From the NCBI RefSeq assembly GCF_000328475.2, contig NC_026497.1, forward strand, positions 248,001 to 312,000: a stretch of 64,000 nt of DNA, written 5' to 3'. Origin of the DNA: Mycosarcoma maydis (lineage: Eukaryota; Basidiomycota; Ustilaginomycetes; Ustilaginales). Positions 16,091 to 29,100 of this stretch are shown here, in pieces. The position numbers were made by a program, and so were the translations under genes. Position 1 is the first letter of the stretch, and every line of letters begins with the position of its first letter. Below the pieces are notes generated by a model. That model made no database searches. It worked only from the letters and a program-made list of their open reading frames with translations, and was not told the DNA's origin.

Positions 16091-16705
16091 GTTGAGCAGG
16101 TGGATGGATTTGGTGGTAAAGAGAGAGGCTGAAAGCACAGATGCTCATGTTGCTCCTGCACATGATTGCGCGCGCGATGCGTCGCCCACTTCTCCATTCA
16201 CGATTAAATCGTGAATCACTCGTGACTGACAAGAGTCACGAGAAGTCTTTGCGCAAGCTTCTTGATCGTGTTTGACCAAAAAACAAAAAAGAAAAAAAAG
16301 AAAGAAAGAAAAGAAGGAGGAAATCGGGCGAGATTGGTCCCCCGATTCGCCGTGTCCGCAGCTGAGACTGTGACTGCTTTCCATAAGCGCGATGCGTACC
16401 TTGCTGTTTTTCTCTATAACCACCTCGCGCGGCTCGTGCCTCTACATTCGCCAGGAGCTGAGTTCAAAGTATGTCCGTTCCCCCCCACCAGTCGACCTGC
16501 AACTATGAACAGAGTGTACGGTGTACCTTAACTTATATATTGCGCTCTCACTCAGAAGGCGCACCGGGAAGACTGAAACCTTTTCTGAAAACAGGGTCCC
16601 ATGACCCGAGGGTCTTTTGACCTTACAGAAAAGTAGTCGTGCGGTCACAGCTTCCGTCGGTGCGATATGTGATCAGACAGATGTATCTGTGCAGCTAGCC
16701 CCGTG
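15302..16705 (-). repeat. Right arm of long inverted repeat (1404 bp)
   Basis: Reverse complement of 11587-12999, differing only by the three-unit-shorter GAA tract as far as I could check. The two arms point toward each other across a 2302-bp spacer. No target-site duplication is evident: the outer flanks (GTTCACGCCT on the left, GCTTGGGCTC on the right) do not match, nor do the inner flanks. Confidence 0.95.
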
Positions 16706-17607
16706 GCTTGGGCTCGAACCGCTGACGGAAGCATCGTACGCAGCTGCATTAGATGGGGTCTGAGAGAACCCATCCTAAATTCACTAGCCCATAATGTAGC
16801 GGCATCTTCACCGCGCACGGCCCAAATATTTAATGTTTCAACCGCGGCAAGCTTACCGAAGGTCAGTGAATCGTTCGACTTCCTTGGTTCCTTGGTTCCT
16901 TGAAAAATTACCCAAAATTACTTGTGCATATTATTTCTTATTTCCATACTGTATCAGTAAGCACACACACCGAGACAGAAGAAATCAAAGGCAAACTTTA
17001 GAAAAAGAAATTCATTCATTACGCGTATTTAGATTTAACTTTTTTCTAGTTAAGTTTAGGGTCGCTCGCAGCGAGTGTTGATCATTTGCAGTAAAACAAG
17101 TCCCCGCATCATTCAATTGCGCAACGGCTTGCACATTAGACGAGGAAGTGAGACGTGGTGCTGAGGTTGAGCTGATCACGTCTGCCCTTCTTCGCATCTC
17201 GGTTGCAAAGAAAATTCCGTCGGAGGTCGAAAGCGACAGTCCCCGCAAGTGCCGTTTAGGCAACGAGTGAACAATGGGGCGAAAACAGCGAATGACGGAG
17301 GTTCGGGTGTACTCTCTTTGGATTCGGAGCAAGCGCTCGCCGCCATGTGCACAAGCCACTTAGTTTCGAAGTCTGAACCTGAACGTAGACCATGCGAACA
17401 GTACGTCTGCACTCGGGTGCAAGCTCTGTTCAGTGCCATGGACGTAGTGTAGACGTAGTAGACGTAGTAGACGTAGTACTTGCCTAAAAATTGAATAGCA
17501 GACTCGTGTGACATTGACACCAAGCAATATGAGTTCCAGTCGCGAGAAGTTACATGAGGCGCATGTGTATTGGCAACAGATGTATAGAGTTTTTGCAATG
17601 ACCCCGA
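16706..17607. other. Intergenic region outside the right arm
   Basis: No gene is supported. AT-rich sequence lies at 16900-17070, and a short 9-bp tandem repeat at 17441-17478 (units GACGTAGTA). The short open frames here have no family character. Confidence 0.45.
17441..17478 (+). repeat. Short GACGTAGTA tandem repeat
   Basis: One imperfect unit (GACGTAGTGTA) followed by three copies of GACGTAGTA. It lies just beyond the stop of the exonuclease-like gene on the minus strand. Confidence 0.85.
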
Positions 17608-18540
17608 CTATGGGCCACTTGCAGTAAGCGTGGTCTGAGACTTGCCGTCATCTTTAAGACGCCTTTCCGGTGCGTTCAGGACAAAATCCTTTTGCCTCGA
17701 CGTCAGGAGTCTGGAATTGCTGAGCTTTAATGCCTCTTCTTGTGCCGGCAGCGCAAGAGAAAGGTAGGACTTCATGAGATATGGCAGCAAGATGGCATCG
17801 TTAGCGCAGTAAAGCATCACCTTCCTGGGCAGAGGCCGTAGGTAGAGAGGGGTCGAATCTCCACCTTTCTGATCAACGAAAGCTTTAGACCTCTTTGTGC
17901 GTTCGCAAACCGCCTGTCGGATTGCCTTAGGGACCGGACCAGACTTTGTTGAGAGAACGGCTGTTCTCAGACTCGGCAAGAAGGGGCTTTCAATGTCACT
18001 TTGTTGCAGAATCGAGAGCACTTGAAGATCCAGGATTCCCGTCATCTTCACCCCGAAGCTTGAGTATAAGTAGTTGCTCAGGCTGCGAACATCGAATCCA
18101 ATCTTCAAACGTCGCGGGTCTTCAAGTACGTGCTGAAGGGTGTACATCGGATCTTCCGTCGACGCGATCTGGAATAGCCGTAGGCCATGCTTGTATGGGT
18201 CAAGAATGAACATTTGATTGAGGAAGATGATCTGAAGAATTGCCACGCCGTCTGGCTCGCCGAAGCCACGTCCCTTTGCGGATAAGTAGATGCATTCGTC
18301 TGGGTGGAAGTTCAACCAGAAGAGAAGATGTGCGACGTACTCGAGGTCCAGAAGGGCCGTAAGTCGAATCATCTTGGAGGATCGAGGTCTTAGTTCTTGG
18401 AATGGATAGTGGAAATTCAACAAGCTGTAAGAATGGCCGCTATAATATACGTGATGCTCTGAATCAGCGTCATTTCTCAAGTTGTATGTGTACGAATTTG
18501 ATAGACGAACTCTTGATAGACATCTAGCACAATTGTCCAT
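17608..18540 (-). CDS. 3'-5' exonuclease-like protein with degenerate active site (310 aa)
   Basis: The sequence follows the DEDD (RNase D/WRN-like) fold: an N-terminal strand (DECIYLSAKGRGFGEPDG), AILQIIFLNQMFILDP, a helix after LQHVLEDPRRLKIGFDVR, then GVKMTGILDLQVLSIL, and a late YCANDAILLPYL. Active family members carry D-x-E in the first motif, D in the second and D in the third. Here the first motif reads S-A-K in place of D-x-E, while the second (GFDVR) and third (YCANDA) aspartates remain. Two metal ions are coordinated by these residues in active enzymes, so this copy is probably inactive and may only bind nucleic acid. The start ATG at 18540 (MDNCARC) is preferred over a TTG four codons upstream. 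No intron is needed. It sits between the inverted repeat and the capping pair. Confidence 0.72.
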   Translation of the reverse strand: MDNCARCLSRVRLSNSYTYNLRNDADSEHHVYYSGHSYSLLNFHYPFQELRPRSSKMIRLTALLDLEYVAHLLFWLNFHPDECIYLSAKGRGFGEPDGVAILQIIFLNQMFILDPYKHGLRLFQIASTEDPMYTLQHVLEDPRRLKIGFDVRSLSNYLYSSFGVKMTGILDLQVLSILQQSDIESPFLPSLRTAVLSTKSGPVPKAIRQAVCERTKRSKAFVDQKGGDSTPLYLRPLPRKVMLYCANDAILLPYLMKSYLSLALPAQEEALKLSNSRLLTSRQKDFVLNAPERRLKDDGKSQTTLTASGP

Positions 18541-19316
18541 GAATGGCCTCAAGCCTGCCAGTTTGTATCAGGGTTGTGAAGTACAGGCGGATGTACTTTG
18601 ACCGGGTACAACTGATCCAATTGAGCGTTTCCATTACCTCGGCGAACGGAAGACGGCACCCTAATCGTAAATTAGAGCGCGCCGTCTAGTATGCATTCGA
18701 CTGCAAGCCAGTTATCTCGCTTATTTTCGATGAAAGAGTCGTGAGTCGAAATATTCCAACAGGATGTTGGAAGTCGTGCTATCTTAACGCAAATCTCCGC
18801 CAGACAAGCACCATAAATCGTGAATCACGAATCACGAATCGTGAATACGGTCGCCTTTTTCTACAATCTTTCATGTTTGATTCACGATTGGCCACCTTTC
18901 TGTTTCGTTTAACATCCGCCGAGCAACCGTGGGAAACAAGACTCGTAGCGGATTTCATGCGGTCTCGGGTGACGAAGCACTGCGACTGTCACCCAGCTTC
19001 TGGATCAAGGTAGCTTAAGCGAACACCATCTTCAGCTCGTAGAAGCTACACATGCACCTTGTGGCAATCCTAGGCAAAAGTTTTGTCGCATAACTACATT
19101 TAACTCCTCTCTCGGGGATCATTCGTGATTGTCTCTATCTCAATGTACCCAAAAAGGGAATAATCCTCACGTTCACTGTATTTAGCCCGGTACTGAAGCA
19201 GCTAGTACTGTTAGTGATAGTAGCAGTAGAATGTACTTAAAAGGGCTGTGACGGTGCCTCCCCTTTTCCAGACCCCACACCTCTGCCAGGCAAGGAGCCA
19301 CAATCAGCCACTCAGG
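18541..19316. other. Intergenic region between exonuclease-like gene and cap methyltransferase-like gene
   Basis: Contains an AATCGTGAATCACGAATCA-type cluster at about 18816-18847 and further GATTCACGATTGG motifs. The two genes are transcribed away from each other, so both promoters should lie here. I see no firm TATA box. Confidence 0.45.
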
Positions 19317-20559
19317 ATGCTGTCTATTGAGCGTACATGTGAGTCCGTTTCTAGTCGATGGTAGTTGAGATCAATCAAACTGACCTTTGATGCCTCCAAG
19401 CTATAAGATCAACATAAGCAAGCTTGTGCTCATAAAAAGAGGCACTTGCGAAAGAGTCATGCGTTCACAAGCTTGACGAACTACGTAAAAGAGTGTCTCA
19501 TTCTTGACAATACGAATATGTGCAGAACTAGCACTCCTCGTGTCGTCGATCTTGGCTGCGGAAGGGGAGCAGATTTCATTCGATTCGAACGACGCTTCCC
19601 TGGAGTAAATTATACTGGCATTGGTGTGTTGCGTTTCGTCCCTTCCATGTCCTCCCCAATCGACTAAATTTGCTGACCACCTTGATTGGGCAGACATGAG
19701 CGAGAACATGCTTTCTCAGGGACCGTTCCGACATCATGACAGAGTCCGACTCATTTGCCAATCCATCGAGGTAGGTAAGGGAAACTTGGCATATCTCGCA
19801 GTGCCTTCTTCCTGACAACTCTCTCTTCTCCCCTTCCAGACAGCATCCCTCCCCACCGCCGACATTATTTGGAGCTTCATGGGCATGCAGAATGCGTGCA
19901 GCACAAGGTCCAAGCTCAAGACTTTCCTCGGAAGGATCAATGACTGTCTGGAAACCGACGGCATCTTCCTAGGTGCTTTCCCGAATGGTACCAGAATACT
20001 GTAGGCATTTTTTACCTCGGCGCTTTTTACATCTCTTCGCCTGCTGCTGACAAGATGATTTGTCTTTTTGGGTGGAAGGCGAGACATGCACCATCTCGAC
20101 GATCATAAGCAACTATACCGTTTCTGTCCCATCCCGGCACCAAATCGACAGGAGAAGTGGTATTCCTTCACGCTGAAGGATGCCTATGAAAACTTGCAAG
20201 AAGCCGCCATCTCTCCAGCCGAGGTTTTCGAGTGAGTGTCATTCTTGGCGCTTCGACTGACAGGCGATTGCTGACACTTGCCTTCTCAATAGTTGTGCAA
20301 AGACTCTTGGCTTTGAAGTTCAAGCCCTTTCATTCGCAGAGTACATTAGGAGCTGTGCCAGCAGCTCTGACAAAAGTGAACTGTTCTCGAAAATTGTCGG
20401 AGACGCCGAGGTGCCTGCATGGGCTATGCGGCTAGCAGGTAAGAACCGAATCCTTTCGTACCTTCTCGCCACAACGGCATTTCCTAATCATCTGCTTCTG
20501 TTTTGGTTGATGCAGAGTACTACACTTGTTTCGTCATTCGCAAACGAACCGTCACATAG
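19317..20559 (+). CDS. mRNA cap guanine-N7 methyltransferase-like protein (272 aa, seven exons)
   Basis: Abd1-type enzymes methylate N7 of the cap guanosine using S-adenosylmethionine. Inferred exons: 19317-19338, 19408-19623, 19694-19770, 19840-20000, 20079-20231, 20293-20438 and 20516-20559; all six introns (61-78 nt, donors GTGAGT, GTGTGT, GTAGGT, GTAGGC, GTGAGT, GTAAGA) keep one frame and total 819 nt. In order: TSLTNYVKECLI (residues 29-39) matches the 'NNWvKs.LI' entry segment; VVDLGCGRGADF (53-64) is the SAM loop; YTGIDMSENML follows; then IIWSFMGMQNACS, with LETDGIFLGAFPNG matching the 'LkpGG.fi.t.p' strand; and WAMRLAEYYTCFVIRKR matches the family's C-terminal strand. At 272 aa it is much shorter than yeast Abd1 (about 436), lacking the N-terminal tail. 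Its six introns are unusual for this window. It converges on the guanylyltransferase-like gene 384 bp away. Confidence 0.78.
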
Positions 20560-20942
20560 GCAACTTGGTAAAAGTTTTTCCTTTCGACACGTCTGTGCTT
20601 TTCTGCAACGACCTTCGGAACTAGTCATAAATGATTGGAAAGAGCTTGACGGAGGAGTCTGTTTCCTAGCCTGCCAAGGAAACCCCCGGCCTTTAGAGGA
20701 TGATACTGAGCGGACAGAGGTTATCAGAAAGTGACGGAGCAAGGACAACTCATTGAGTGCTGTGCATTTGCGGTGCCTAGAACAAATCGCTCGCTGTCAA
20801 GGTGAGCAACACAATGAAGAGTCGAGGAGCGCAGTTCTTCCGCGAAAAAGTTCCTATGCAAATCAAGTTGATCTTTCCCCATTCGTGAGTCTACGACCGT
20901 TGACGTCCTCGACTATCTTGCGTATCTAGGTGATTCTCAGTA
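20560..20942. other. Convergent intergenic gap of the capping pair
   Basis: Shared 3' region of the two capping genes (383 bp). It contains no gene and no clear poly(A) signal pair. Confidence 0.5.
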
Positions 20943-22685
20943 CTATCTTGTCGCTTCCACGAGCTAAGTGGAGCGCATTCCCATTGGTGTCAGAAGAAAT
21001 CAAATGGATACACAAGTGGCAGAGGCGTACGGGACTTACCAAAGACCAGGTTAACGGTTGCTGTTGCTGGCGTATGGTTCGAAGCACTTGTTGCGAGTGA
21101 TTGGCGCAATACTTGTCATCTCTCCAGCGAACAAATGTGACCATGTCCTTGTTGACAACAAATTCGGCTATGCGCTCGGATCCTTCCCTTGAAGAGAGTA
21201 AGATGGTGGTCAGTAAGGGAAAGCTTCGCCAAGAGGGCTGACAGATGGAGACCCTACCATTCTGGTACCCCTTGCACTCGCTGTTTCATCGTGACGGGCT
21301 TGTAGATACCCTTGCCTTCCCAGGCAAAAAGAGAATGACGTTGCTGCTCCGAGTCGTGTTTGCGAATCAGCAGATCGATGGTGAGAACATGTGGGGGTTT
21401 CCATCGGTAACTGTCCCATGACGCTTCGTCTCAGTAATTGTCCGTGAACGGCTCTGGTGTATCGGATAGAGGGCGACTCACCATGCGATTGTGCCTTTCT
21501 CGAAATAGGAGCAGTTTCTGTGGTAAAGAACGATGCCGTCGCATTGAGGAACGAGCTCTGGTTGCAATGCCATTGCAAGTTCGCTTGTTTCGCGGGCAGC
21601 TACCTTTGTCCAAACTGAACACTGGCGGAGATCTGCGCAATTTCGAACGCTGATACCTCGAAGGAAGCGTTCGTTAGTCGCTTTGTTGCGCAACTATACC
21701 AGGTCGTTGGCAAAGGTGAACAACTCACCAGACATGTATCCTGTAGTCTTCACCACGTTCTCGAGGGCTCACCACATCGTGTTTGGGAAATTGCTCGCCG
21801 AGGAGCTAAGTGCAAAATAAAGAAGGGTACAGTCAGCTTATCGGTTTGTCGATCATCGAAAAGGTTAACAGATCGTACCCTGTGCCGTATCCAAAACGGC
21901 TTATGGGCATAGTCCCGTCCGGCCCAACGCAGAAGATCGAAGCAGAACAGATCGAAAGAGCGCTGCGGTGTGCTATCTGTCGCTTCCGATGGTACAGAAG
22001 GCTCGGCAGCAGGCTCGATGAGATCATTCAATACAAGCTCGGCGTCAAGAACGGCGCAAAGGACCACGTCAAATTTCTCTAACGGTGAATCTTTGAGGTG
22101 CCTTCGCGAAAGTATGTAGGTCTCGTTCCGACGGTCCGTCTGTAGAAGAAGCCCAGAGACATCAATCGAGCCACTATCAGTAATTGCCGGTCAAAGGCCA
22201 CGGAGATATAGACTAACTACTTACAGCGTACCACACCTCATGCTGACAAGTCTGGACGATCGAGATCAAGGTTCGCGTACCGTCCACTTTATAGCCCCAT
22301 ACAAAACTGAAGCAACAGAAAGCGTGAGCTGCATGAAAGGTCACGAGACGGTACGAGAAAAGCTGGCCGAGCTTACTGGTTGAAGTTGAAAGAGATGGTC
22401 TCTAGCTCCTCACTAGTGAGATCGCGGGGATGGATACCTACACACATGAGCCAGGTCATGAGTAACGTTTCTCGTCATGCTTCTAGAACATCCGCTTGAC
22501 CTACCTATGAAGCTGTGAAGAGAACGCTCGCGCGAAAAGTCAGTGCGAAGCACGAACGCATTACCTGTTGCGATGAACGAGACTTACTGAGGTCTAGTCG
22601 AGTCTGCCAAGCGATTCAAGCTGGACCTGACAAACTCTGCTTCATAGCGCGACGCTGGTTTCAAGAAGGTGGAGAGGCTGCCCAT
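20943..22685 (-). CDS. mRNA guanylyltransferase-like capping enzyme (358 aa, ten exons)
   Basis: Ceg1-type enzymes transfer GMP from GTP to the 5' diphosphate end of RNA through a lysyl-GMP intermediate. Inferred exons: 22685-22588, 22512-22505, 22437-22377, 22306-22225, 22139-21879, 21805-21729, 21649-21482, 21410-21258, 21187-21040 and 20963-20943; nine introns of 67-85 nt keep one frame over 1077 nt. Motif I is KVDGTR with catalytic Lys62; TDRRNETYIL (84-93) fits the 'iDR.n..y' strand. Motif III is VLDAELV (D115, E117) where the family has DGE. RSFDLFCFDLL fits IIIa. Motif IV is DGIVLY (D233). Motif V is RWKP (254-257) where yeast has KWKP. Motif VI is RWRDDKYCAN (D326, K328). All nucleotidyltransferase motifs are thus present in order with two conservative changes. 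A separate triphosphatase domain is absent, as in other fungi. The 8-nt second exon is the least certain part. Confidence 0.83.
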
Positions 22686-24849
22686 GCTTGCTGCCGGTCT
22701 GCTGAATGGTCACCAAGTGGGTTGCGGAGGATGGTGATAAATTTGAAAGCGTGTGCGCTCCACGCTACCCATCTGCACGTTGCCACAAACCGCCACATCC
22801 CGCTCGAGAGCAACACCCTCATGTTACTGTCATGAATTTACTAACGTTATGGTGCTTGGTTTCAACTACGAAGACACATTTCCCGCCCAGTGGAAACACT
22901 GAGGCTCCGACCAAATGCACGGGCCATGTTACTGGTAGCCCTTTTCTCTGTTTTTGCAATTTCTTTTTTTTTTCTTTCTATGTTCTCGGGTCAGAGTTAG
23001 GAACAAGAACGGTCAATGCTCGGCTATTTGCCAAGCTTCGAGAATGGAAGCAGGACAGACAGGATTCTATTATCGAAGCCATTAGGGTCCCAGTCACGAC
23101 GGAGGGCTGGCCAGAAAAAGTCCAGCGAATTCAAAAAGAAATCCAGACATTTGAAGCTTCTGCATTCAGCCAGAGGACTGTAGAAAATGATCACCCAAGT
23201 GTTACAGGCGCCGCAAGATACCACGAGTCTGCCAGGAATAACAGGATTGTCCACGGGCCAGAAATGACTATTCGTGGATAAGCTGGTTGTCATCCATTAT
23301 AGCTAGGTACATTACGCTATCTACTGATGGGCTGGACCTCATCCTACTCTCTTATCGCCACTCTCTCTTATCGCCACACGCAGGCCGTGGGTGCGGAGCA
23401 CACCCTTTATAAGACATGATTTCCCTTCTTCTGGACGAGCTGGTCCTCATCCACCGGGTCATCCACTCTATTATTCTTTTATCTTACTGTTTACTCGCCA
23501 TCGCGAAACTAGTTACGTTACGTTTGTTCGACCAGTGCAGCAATCCAATATATTGCTGCCATACACGCTCGTGCCCTTAGGCCTGTGGATCAGCGTGTTC
23601 AAGATCCAAAACCTACACCGACACTGCAGCACCTACACTGCAGACGGTCCCCCAATCATCACTAGATATCATATAGCAGAGCACCGTCGTTAAGAACGCT
23701 CACGAGGTGCGCTGCACACTAATCGGAACCGAGCTAGGCCGCATCACCGCTGAGTGGGGCGTTCAACACTCCCGGCCGATACCGCGTCCTGTCACGGATT
23801 TTCCAACTTATTGCGTCATCCGCCCAGACCGCGGTCATCAGGCACAGGATCGTGACACCAAGCAGCGAGGATTGGCAGGCATATTAAAAAGGGCGTGAGA
23901 AAAGTTTGCACCATGGCGTCCCGTTATACTCTAATTGTAGCCCTTGTATAGCGTCGACGATCTGTAAGCTCGCATGCACTACTGTACTTGATAGCGTATA
24001 AGCGAAAGTGAAAGGTACAAGGGGTAACCCAGCTAGGGTTGACGATGCAACACCCCCTTTTCTTTGTGTTACTGGATAGGCCCATGGTGAATAAAGTCAA
24101 AGTCATTAGTCAACCCTAGCCCAAGGCGGTGGCCGTCGGTGGGAGTCTTGTGGCTCCTCTCACGGTCCGCAGTACCGCTTTGTTGGATCGACGCCTTGTA
24201 CAGTGCTTTGTGACCACAGACCATAAGCTTTGTGACCGTGAGTCTCAAGCTGTCCACTGTGGAATCCAAGAGTCTGTCGGATCTTGCAGCCTGCCAATCG
24301 AGGGGTGCGTGTGGTGAGAACTTCTGAAGATCTCCAACCGTGGATGGTGTTGCGGCCAGCAGGAGTGGGGTTAGGCAAAGCTTACGGCCTGTTCGAGTAA
24401 CGGTCTGACATTGTCTGCACTAAATGAGTTGACTGGTACAATCGCTGTCTGCTTGCTGCCGCCGCGATGGTCCCAGCTGAAAGACAGAGATGGTTGCCTT
24501 TGTCTGTCTCGTATGCTCAGCCGTGCGTCTCTGCCAATCCTGTTTGAGCCTGCTGAGGGTGATGCTGAACACAAACACGCTGGCTTCTTGCTGATGGACG
24601 GACTGAGATCCATCACTCACTCACTGAACTCTTCTGCTCCCAGCTCCGCATCTCTCTTCCCCAAGTCACAAATCCTCGACTGCTCTTTTGGTGCTGGCAA
24701 CGACGGCACCAACATCCAAAACAACAACGCCTAGTGTGCAGCGACTTCTGTTCCCAGCTCTCCTGGTGAGAGGTAAGCATTCGTGATTTGCAACACGCGT
24801 CACCACGTATCATTGCAATAACTGAGAATCTATTGCTTTTTCCGATTCA
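22686..24849. other. Gene-poor stretch with one doubtful open frame
   Basis: An open frame runs from ATG 22706 to 23281 on the plus strand (191 aa). Its second half (LFAKLREWKQDRQDSIIEAI, then WPEKVQRIQKEIQ) looks helical and protein-like. Its first half includes a T-rich stretch at about 22965-22985 that reads like an intron ending TCGGGTCAG. It begins 20 bp from the start of the divergent guanylyltransferase-like gene, so it is doubtful. From 23300 to 24850 I see no gene. A perfect 12-bp inverted pair GCTAGGGTTGAC / GTCAACCCTAGC lies at 24032-24043 and 24109-24120. Confidence 0.4.
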
Positions 24850-25950
24850 GACTGCTGATTCCGCTCCAATCAGCACTGCACAGATCATGCAGCTGCAGAA
24901 GTTCCACCTTGGCTTGGTTGCTCACCCACGCATCCTAGTCTGCACACGTCCCAACTGCGGTTATGGACTCGCTCTGATGCCGTCAGTCAAGGAGAGGGTG
25001 GCTCATGTCAAGCAGTCCCACTCCTACACGCTGATCGATGCTCAGCTAGCTACACTCAAGCTGCTCCTTCAAGAGCAGAAGCTGGAGAATTCTCGGCTGT
25101 GGAACTCAAGAAGGAACTCTTGCCAGTGCCGTGCATCCCAGAGCTGGCGGTCAGCTACGATGGCCGCCACTGCACGGTCTGCACGTACAGCATCAAGAGC
25201 AAGTCTGCCGTGAAGGGCCACATTAAGCAGCACACTTCTGCTGGCGGTGCAAGCACATACCACTGCAATGACGCTGTCGGCAATGACGCTGTCGGCAATG
25301 ACGCTGTCCAGCTGTATTGGTAGAGTAGCCAGACCTACGCTCGCTAGGTGCATGCTAGCCATCCCACATTGGTGTCTCCGCCTCCGCCTGCAGCACTCAG
25401 TACGGCTGAGTCTGCAGACAAGCTGGACGATGCCGCCAAGGCCAAGGTCAGCGCTCTCATCAAGATGGATCAGGAGCTCCTCCACCGTGCCGGTCTCCTT
25501 GCTCCGCAGATTCAGCCGTCAGGGTACAACAGTAACCTTGGTCCTTGGCAACATGCCCTGGACGGGCAGACGTACTCGGGCTGGCAAGACGGCCACTGCT
25601 ATTGGCCTCCTACATGGTGAGCCCAACAAATGGAGAGGCGCTCACCGCTACGGGGCGCACTGGATCTACGTTGCCAGCAAGAGGTGTGCCGCTGCGTGGA
25701 TGAGCGGTCTGCTCACCTCCAGCCGCAAGACGCAGACCAACTTCCACGCTCACGGTCCAGATGCAAGCGAGCCGTACAGCCTTAGCAAAGGCACAGTCTA
25801 GAAGCGTGCCGAGCTGTGGGCGCACATGCTGGCGCTGCTCTTGCACCTCTCCTTTGATACTGACAATGCTGGCTACTATGGCGAGGCCGAGATGTACGCT
25901 CACCTTGGCTTGGATGCAGAGCTGGAGGATACCGGCTTTCAGTACAGCAG
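24850..25950 (+). pseudogene. Broken OrsD-like zinc-finger gene remnant
   Basis: The plus strand carries pieces of a protein resembling the fungal OrsD/DUF3505 domain, often found in transposon-associated or accessory genes. The first piece has HPRILVCTRPNCGYGLAL and VAHVKQSH (a C-x4-C ... H-x4-H finger). After a change of frame at about 25090-25100, a second has CTVCTYSIKSKSAVKGHIKQH-like spacing (C-x2-C ... H-x3-H). In-frame stops follow at 25321 and nearby. Coding character then moves to another frame (about 25610-25800, with GAHWIYVASK), stops at 25800, and resumes with RAELWAHMLALLLHL to about 25950. A three-copy repeat of a CAATGACGCTGTCGG unit sits at about 25266-25310. Several frame changes and stops mark it as decayed unless extra introns exist. 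The family call is from memory of the paired fingers. Confidence 0.55.
25266..25310 (+). repeat. Three tandem CAATGACGCTGTCGG units
   Basis: A 15-bp unit repeated three times in frame within the OrsD-like remnant, encoding a repeated NDAVG peptide. Confidence 0.85.
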
Positions 25951-26132
25951 TCTAACATTTTCTCGCAGCCCCCATGCGCTAGATCTCTCTCACACAGACC
26001 CTATCTTTTGTTCTTACCACAAAAACACAGAGACTTGCGAGAGTCGAGCAGACCCTGTGAGGTACAATCGGGAATGTGGGTGGATTGTGCTTCATGTCGC
26101 GCAATGTGAATGATCGGAGCAAGTTGCGCCCA

Positions 26133-29100
26133 CTACGCGCTCTGAACGATATAGTTGACAATAGACCCTAGACTGTCAACATCCAAACGTGCTTCGTCCA
26201 AGAGCTTCGAGAGGTCTGGTTGACCCTGGAGCCAGTCAAGCTCTGCCTGGAAAGGAATGGGTGGCTGCGATGGCGCAAGGAACGTATTGGTAGCCGAGGC
26301 CGGCTCAGCCACCGCTTGTGCTCGAGGAGCTGCATGCGACTGCACCTCGCCACCATTAATTCCATGTCGCCTCATCTTGTTGCGCAGCAGACGCGCCTCG
26401 ATTTCATCTACATTAAGCTCTTCGAAGCCGTGCGCCTCGAGTAGCACGGCCACCAGATGCAAAACATCGAGCGTGTGACCAGTGATGGGTCGGATGACTT
26501 CCTCCTCCACCACATGTGCTAGAGGTTTGCGCAACGGAGCCAGCTTTGTTTCCCCCTTTTCCAGGTCCTCAAGCACCTCGGATATGACCGGCTTGACCAC
26601 TGAATCTTCCAATTCTGCCATCCAAGTGCCAAGAGCAGTGGTGTGAGCAACACAAGAGGTGTCTGGCTCACCACCTACCGACGGTGTAGCTGTGCCAGCT
26701 GCTTCCTCGGTCGTATCACGCCACATGAACGGTCCACGCCGCGAAGCAGCGCTCGGCTCGGGTGTGGCTTCGGTCTCTGTCACCTTGCGCATCGCTGCTG
26801 CCAGCAAAAGCTTCTTCTCTGCTTCTGCAATTTGCTGCTCTTCTGCATCGTCGGCCTCATCCAGCAACATGGCGTGGTGTATCGCACCACCTACAAATTC
26901 GCCCACGCTGCGGACGTAGGCATTTCCGGTAACTCCAGCATACACTGTATCTGACACATATCTGCTGGCTGCTTGTTGCTCCGCCTGAGTCCAGCTACCG
27001 TTTCGTGTCGTTGCAATACCAGCTTTAGCGGCCCCAATGTATCGCATGAGGATCCCCTGTGCTTGCCTGAGACCTTCCTCGCTTTGTCCAAGCTCCGTTT
27101 TGATAGCCTGAATGCCTTGCTCCCCCAGTAGAGTCGTAGAGAACGCCGGTGTGGGCGAGGTCACTGCTTGCGCGCCCTTGGTAGCTCTTGCCGTCTTGCC
27201 CTTCGCCATCATCTTCGCCGGTTCCGACCTTTGGTCTTGTTCGGTTGTCGGCACTAACGCAGTAAAAGGTCCGAGATCGGTGATCTCGAGAAGACGCGTC
27301 AGAGTGGGTCGGAAGTAACTCCAGTCTTCGAGCGTCTCGCGTTCCTTCTCGCGCTCCTTGTCCTTTTGCTTTTTGGGTCTCTTGTCATTCTTGAGAGCTT
27401 CAGCGTAGGCTGGATTGTCCCACGAGTGAAGCACGCCGTACGATGCCTGATCCTGCAGCGACCTGGTCGGTAAGCTCGGTGCGTGGAAGGGCAAGTTTCG
27501 AAAGTGTCGTGGCAGTGGCTCCACATCGTGGCTGAGGTTGCTCTGTAGCGGCTCAGGCTCAGGTGCAATGGCAGAGTAGAGTGGATCAGGCGCACCAGGA
27601 CGCGAGGGTGGAAGTGTCGAGAGCGGATCTTTGTCGCCCTTTTCCCTGGTGTCACCTTTGCCGTCCTCGTCCTCGTCATCGCCATCGTCTGTTGCACCCT
27701 TATCCTTTGCCTTTTCCTTCTCCTTTGAGCGCTCCTGTTCTTTGTCCTGGTCTTTAGCTTTGCCTTCTGCGCCGCTATTAGTGATATAGTCGCCAGGAAT
27801 AAAAGGTATTGGATGAAGCGACTCTATTGTCGGCATCAGTATGTGCTTGCCACTACGATGGAGCGTCAAGAAAGCCTGCAGATCGTCGATATCTTCTGGA
27901 TTAATCGAGCCGTTGTCCTCGAATGAGTAGCTGGCTGCGGTTGTCTGAATCTGGGTTTGTGACAAATCGGCAATGAGCTGGGCTGCGGCGGCAGCAGTCG
28001 CAGCTGGGTCGAGTGTGAGTCCGGCGCTATCCGTTGCCGCACCAGAAGAAGAAGCTACACTGGCAAGAGGTGTGCCCGAGCCCGTCAGTCCCGTTCGTGC
28101 AAGCAAACGCTTGGGGGTTCCTGGTGCACTAAGACGTTTCCTGTGCTTGGAATGCTTAGAAGCCCTACTCGTTCCACCTGCTACAGCTGACAACGCTCCC
28201 ATAGGACTAGCCAAAGCCTGAGCAGGTGTACCTGTCACTGCTGCCAGCCGACGCCTCAACGCGCCCGGGCTGGCCTGCCGTTGTCCCAGAGGTGTCGAGG
28301 GTGTGCCGCATGGCTGCGATGAGCCACATTGTCGGCCATTGACGCCTGCTGCACAATCCACGGTTACCGAACGCTCTCTGGTGACATTGGCGCGTATGCC
28401 GCCTTCCTCGTCCGACACATTCTCGTCCTCGTCATCGTCGATGTCCATATCAGCATTGCCCTCGGCCTTTACACCTGCGCCTGGCTGTACCGAGTCTTCG
28501 CGTGTCAAAGTACCCCCTGTCAAGCCCAGTGCGATGGCTGCACGTTGCCTTGCCTGTGAAGTGACTCGCGCAGCTTCCATCAACGCCTCTACACCCGCGC
28601 TGAAGGCAAAGCGTGATCCCCTTGCAGCTGAACGTGTTGTCAGCTCTTCGGATGCGTTTTGGTCGCCTACTCGCTGCTGACTCGCATCGTCCAGCGCCGG
28701 CTGCTGATTGGCTGTCGAGCCGCGAAGGGGCCTACGACTGTGGCCATCGTCCACAGACGACGGACCTTCCAAAACGCCGACAGAAGTAACAGTAGCTGCT
28801 TCTCTTTCCAGTCTTCTTTGCCGCCTCATCTCTTCGCCCTTGAGACCTGCACGTCCATTGTCATTGACAGCCATGCCTTCTCGCTCAATCGCCCGATTAC
28901 CCCATGCAGCGATGCGTTTTGCTTCGTTGTAGTAGAGTGTGCCTTCAGGATTGAATGTCATTGCGTTGGAAATGACGAGCTGAAAGTCAGCCTTGACCTG
29001 GTCCATGTGGCTGTACAGTCGGTCTTGGACTTTGCGTTGCATGGTACCAAAGTCCATGGGCGATTTGATAACGTCCGAGTAACCAGGGACCTCGTCCGGA

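Follow-up and report, generated by a model that had tools for sequence, protein, structure and literature searches.

To our knowledge, cap synthesis in fungi is regarded as a housekeeping pathway run by single-copy genes. Second capping enzymes exist in trypanosomes, and cytoplasmic re-capping, which re-uses the nuclear enzymes, occurs in animals. Capping activities accessory to those of the host are represented by ORF3 of pGKL2, from yeast virus-like elements, and by the D1 type of the nucleocytoplasmic large DNA viruses (NCLDV), both of which are described as one three-domain protein (PMC6211774; PMC3493329). Here, we describe two adjacent genes of Mycosarcoma maydis (Ustilago maydis), located in a window of 64,000 nucleotides (contig NC_026497.1, positions 248,001 to 312,000; C20:248001-312000 in our contig naming). 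MT2, on the plus strand, encodes a protein resembling the cap guanine-N7 methyltransferases (Abd1/RNMT/Ecm1), and GT2, on the minus strand, a protein resembling the cap guanylyltransferases (Ceg1/Pce1/Cgt1). Like pGKL2 ORF3 and the D1-type enzyme, the pair would provide a capping activity accessory to that of the host; unlike them, it consists of two separate chromosomal genes. From sequence comparison, we lean towards reading GT2 and MT2 as an accessory second cap-forming pair, native to smuts and long diverged from the core Ceg1 and Abd1 enzymes.

The two genes are intron-dense and convergent. MT2 (19317..20559 of the window, plus strand) has seven exons (19317-19338, 19408-19623, 19694-19770, 19840-20000, 20079-20231, 20293-20438, and 20516-20559), which join into a single frame of 272 amino acids (aa) across six GT..AG introns of 61-78 bp. 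GT2 (20943..22685, minus strand) has ten exons (22685-22588, 22512-22505, 22437-22377, 22306-22225, 22139-21879, 21805-21729, 21649-21482, 21410-21258, 21187-21040, and 20963-20943) and nine GT..AG introns of 67-85 bp, its exons joining into a single 358-aa frame. A preliminary description of this DNA, made by hand splicing, had recognized the convergent methyltransferase-like and guanylyltransferase-like genes, and both assignments held up; it was also right about the closeness of the two ends but gave the distance as 384 bp, whereas 383 bp separate the stop codons (20560-20942). A YTRAY branch-site-like word begins 20-41 bases upstream of the intron end in 12 of the 15 introns, a count made without a shuffled control. 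Searches of a public protein set of approximately 5.8 billion entries returned P0002, identical to MT2 residues 45-272, and P0001, which except for its start residue is identical to GT2 residues 64-358. These two entries confirm the junctions of 11 of the 15 introns, namely MT2 introns 2-6 (5/6) and GT2 introns 4-9 (6/9), and the junction in P0001 rules out an alternative placing of GT2 intron 6. MT2 intron 1 and GT2 introns 1-3 are based on splice consensus and frame. The only source label of P0001 and P0002 is 'lgn', which we interpret as denoting sequences assembled from public sequencing runs, and since both are spliced, they are presumably derived from RNA. Within the length and word limits of the protein-set searches, no named Ustilago record was found for MT2 or GT2; if the genome is that of U. 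maydis 521, its public proteins may not include either product.

The proposal that the pair is a second, accessory set was supported when the whole genome (19,664,356 bases, 27 contigs) was searched for other copies, since separate core genes were found. Core CEG1 lies at C17:540515-541102, in a 460-aa frame counted from ATG, and core ABD1 at C5:13071-13982, inside a 787-aa frame counted from TTG. Both have the standard motifs, both are single-frame, and they are on separate contigs. With the core copies on C17 and C5, the reading of MT2 and GT2 as the core genes was ruled out, and these results support the pair as a second, non-core set. GT2 is 23% identical to CEG1 and MT2 is 22% identical to ABD1. 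When used as queries, the spliced proteins recovered the window genes (eight matches for GT2 and 6/7 for MT2), and MT2 also reached core ABD1 (E = 1.1e-4). With Pfam profiles, PF01331 found the core gene only, and PF03291 saw the window only as a single exon below the cut-off. As in the preliminary description, no triphosphatase was seen with the pair; the genome has one of the Cet1 type on C13 (two exon matches), and no second one was found in the whole-genome search.

GT2 keeps most of the motifs of a guanylyltransferase. Motif I reads KVDGTR, and its nucleotidyl lysine, K62, falls just outside P0001 but within the exon that holds the start of P0001 (exon 4, residues 56-83). Motifs IIIa (FDLL), IV (DGIVL), V (RWKP), and capping-type VI (RWRDDKYCANH) are all kept. 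As in Ceg1/Pce1/Cgt1 (PF01331 plus PF03919), motifs I, IIIa, IV, V, and VI occur in order, and motif VI is of the DDK..NH form and resembles that of our four fungal references. Unlike in those enzymes, motif III (LDAELV) has Ala in place of Gly, with the Glu kept; the references read LDGELV or MDGELV (four fungal) and LDGEMI (mammalian). GT2 further differs from them in its low identity (21-23% to the four fungal enzymes), a 15-residue insert after motif III, a short C terminus, nine introns, and its status as a second copy besides a core gene. A profile of five reference guanylyltransferases matched GT2 with E = 1.8e-11 (all reference profiles were built without the query, with the search space set to 6500), and the only PDB sequence matched at E ≤10 was 4pz6 (Pce1, the fission yeast enzyme; E = 4.4e-4). 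P0001 carries a precomputed PF01331 label; its best NCBIfam match was a ligase domain, far below the cut-off, and it had no match in PHROGs. The predicted structure of P0001 alone was useless (mean predicted local distance difference test score, pLDDT, of 31.9). For GT2, we claim kinship with the Ceg1 family and its likely mode of action rather than certified membership.

MT2 passed the Pfam cut-off of the cap guanine-N7 methyltransferase family PF03291 (E = 1.1e-12, 48.1 bits for a cut-off of 26.6), and P0003, a relative from Violaceomyces palustris, scored 63.6 bits. For MT2 and PF03291, as for GT2 and PF01331 (E value given below), the homology exceeds what chance would produce. A profile of four reference cap methyltransferases gave E = 4.6e-14 for MT2, over most of the protein, and E = 5.5e-20 for P0003. 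Like Abd1/RNMT/Ecm1, MT2 has equivalents of the S-adenosylmethionine (SAM)-site Asp, of Lys151, and of the guanine-reading Glu344 and Tyr413 of KlAbd1, the last two being E and Y in both MT2 and P0003. Unlike these enzymes, to which it is 18-27% identical (four references), MT2 is without the long N-terminal region. The P0003 model, used to represent the MT2 family, also shares their fold. Its Foldseek matches included both cap methyltransferases and SAM methyltransferases of other kinds, the top row being a Plasmodium N-methyltransferase, and re-ranking with VIA-align placed RNMT and Ecm1 first. These comparisons of a predicted model indicate a fold-level kinship of the MT2 family with cap methyltransferases. 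In NCBIfam, the best family for P0002 and P0003 was BioC, far below the cut-off, and in PHROGs, P0003 matched phrog_4752 ('tRNA methyltransferase', E = 3.8e-9). We claim that MT2 probably works like, or derives from, the Abd1/RNMT family, and standard membership is not claimed.

The protein-set searches were also used to look for the two genes in other species. For MT2, 307 candidates yielded P0002, P0003, and P0004. P0003 is 49% identical to MT2 over 98% of its length, and V. palustris belongs to another order of the Ustilaginomycetes, the Violaceomycetales. P0004 is a partial relative, with 18/21 and 32/54 residues matching MT2 over two coding stretches; at the position of MT2 intron 3, the frame of P0004 continues through the intron (25 residues), and by eye it seemingly does so at intron 4 as well. 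For GT2, no relative beyond P0001 was present among 1372 candidates (E ≤0.001, search with the alternative intron 6 model) or among 12 candidates (109 residues, E ≤10, search with the P0001-based model), in a type of search that would overlook a poorly annotated relative or one with few 5-residue words exactly in common. With its nine small introns, GT2 may lack correct gene models in other assemblies.

Several of these results weigh against a capping function for the pair, and the chief weakness of the module idea is that relatives were found elsewhere for MT2 but not for GT2. The Pfam scores are another. GT2 reached 27.4 bits against PF01331 (E = 3.6e-6), which is short of the cut-off of 29.6 and in this respect unlike Ceg1/Pce1/Cgt1 (the alternative placing of intron 6 gave 26.7 bits), and 26.5 bits against the DNA-ligase domain PF01068 (E = 6.2e-6), which is above the cut-off of 26.2. 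In addition, the cap pocket of MT2 is remodelled compared with Abd1/RNMT/Ecm1: His250-Tyr251 of the KlAbd1 guanine pocket are replaced by Gln-Asn in MT2, P0003, and P0004, and Arg/Asn by Thr in MT2. All of this would fit two chance neighbours with different jobs, MT2 methylating a different substrate, either guanine-containing or small, and GT2 being a ligase-like nucleotidyltransferase with another acceptor, and the position of GT2 between the two cut-offs lowers our confidence in a capping pair and raises it in this alternative. Nevertheless, we consider such a split unlikely. GT2 has the capping-type motif VI, before which its PF01068 match stops, and it weakly matches PF03919, the C-terminal domain of capping enzymes (E = 0.0061, 17.7 bits, below the cut-off of 26.5), as well as Pce1. 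MT2 keeps the guanine-reading Glu and Tyr. Moreover, chance adjacency of two homologues acting in successive steps seems unlikely, the core pair being on different contigs, although this is an impression and not a computed probability. The PF01331 and PF01068 families are related and belong to one ligase/capping superfamily. By Pfam alone, GT2 would be a nucleotidyltransferase of this superfamily and not certainly a capping enzyme.

Concerning the origin of the pair, the preliminary description had suggested a mobile element, a linear plasmid, or a large DNA virus as the source, with introns gained later. Such an acquisition would agree with the very long branches of both genes (4.5 substitutions per site for GT2 and 2.0 for the stem of the MT2 clade), with the viral cap methyltransferases that appear among other BFVD fold matches of the MT2-family model, which do not settle the origin, and with the accessory capping enzymes known from yeast virus-like elements (PMC6211774). 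Our tests gave it no support. Four scans of viral contigs, which need near-exact short words, returned 18 pattern matches for the MT2 family, 218 and 56 for core-type enzymes, and 3 for GT2, without any confirmed relative; these scans are insensitive, since the two with core-type enzymes missed viral capping enzymes known to exist. The G+C content at third codon positions (GC3) is 0.535 in MT2 and 0.565 in GT2, near that of eight comparison genes (0.544-0.712). No long flanking repeat was present in 16500-26200, where direct repeats amounted to four pairs of 25-30 nt (72-73%) and inverted repeats were absent. In small trees, MT2 and P0003 were separated from four cap methyltransferases with 100% support and the placement of GT2 was uninformative, the mammalian enzyme even grouping with the core smut enzyme; these trees are too thin to rule out an old transfer of the pair. 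A mobile-element, viral, or plasmid origin is thus not supported, by tests that were weak and left fungal plasmids unsearched, and we regard it as improbable. The high divergence of both genes, together with a GC3 of MT2 slightly under the range of the comparison genes, might instead point to decaying duplicates without function. We give this the least credence of all the readings, since both multi-exon frames are open, the products are spliced, and MT2 combines 49% identity to its Violaceomycetales relative with several conserved catalytic-site residues. An old fungal paralogue, arisen by duplication, would be the simplest origin of the pair, though it is not proven.

Next to MT2, a divergent frame (17611..18567, minus strand, 319 aa from stop to stop) encodes an EXD1/Egalitarian-like protein of 3'-5' exonuclease fold, matching PF01612 with E = 3.1e-6. 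No other copy of it was found in the genome. The protein has weak PDB matches to Egalitarian (E = 0.12) and EXD1 (E = 0.21-0.23), and its first catalytic (acidic) motif seems degenerate by eye. This gene and MT2 are possibly co-regulated. The upstream region that they have in common contains several short repeated words of the CGTGATTCACGA type (18800-18890). On the other side, the region adjoining GT2 (22706-25798) has open frames of 90-195 aa, and none of the four tested passed a Pfam cut-off. The other neighbours look ordinary (bromodomain, WD40, TFIIS, Sir2, and mitochondrial ribosomal proteins). Elsewhere in the genome, there are two strong matches to the eIF4E family (C23:65513-66064 and C7:776075-776605). 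A third match of the ATP-ligase type, at C2:1170177-1170686 (minus strand; 28.8 bits, 778-aa frame), was seen in addition to two with higher scores, on C20 and C13.

Our best reading is that the pair is old and lineage-specific, and that it would serve a special class of RNA while sharing the triphosphatase of the core pathway. The 5'-diphosphate end would be supplied by the Cet1-type enzyme found in the genome or would already be borne by the RNA. GT2 would load guanosine monophosphate onto the lysine of motif I and pass it on to the 5'-diphosphate RNA, giving GpppRNA, whose guanine MT2 would next methylate at N7. Since a core set is present, the pair would most likely act on a restricted RNA class or in a given life stage, not on bulk RNA polymerase II (Pol II) transcripts. 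Intron loss tends to accompany strong expression. Because of this tendency, the 15 introns kept beside single-frame core genes, in a species reported to have 0.51 introns per gene, the lowest among the genomes compared in that report (PMC10262431), suggest low or stage-limited expression. According to another report, docking sites on the Pol II C-terminal domain (CTD) vary between taxa (PMC8034621). More tentatively, and to our minds doubtfully, a linked second smut system with a remodelled cap-guanine pocket could work apart from the Pol II CTD route, capping, for example, processed RNAs, cytoplasmically re-capped RNAs, or the transcripts of one life stage, and might make or tolerate a non-standard cap. 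GT2 starts with MGSLST (22685-22668, minus strand), which fits an N-myristoylation pattern and would suggest a cytoplasmic location. Like animal cytoplasmic re-capping and the second capping enzymes of trypanosomes, the pair would be a second route for special RNAs; unlike animal re-capping, which re-uses the nuclear enzymes, it consists of separate genes, and its action in the cytoplasm would be conjectural.

Among the titles listed from the open-licence PubMed Central (PMC) literature, none dealt with a second pair of capping genes, whether in Ustilago or on the chromosome of another fungus, and no paper was found on a telomerase RNA of Ustilago whose end is a monophosphate. As the preliminary description also proposed, the pair may be devoted to special transcripts, and the presence of a second, highly diverged, intron-rich capping-like pair suggests a separate capping route. 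In a fungus open to genetic work, an accessory guanylyltransferase linked to an accessory N7 methyltransferase would allow a direct test of whether a eukaryotic cell keeps such a route, and for which RNAs.
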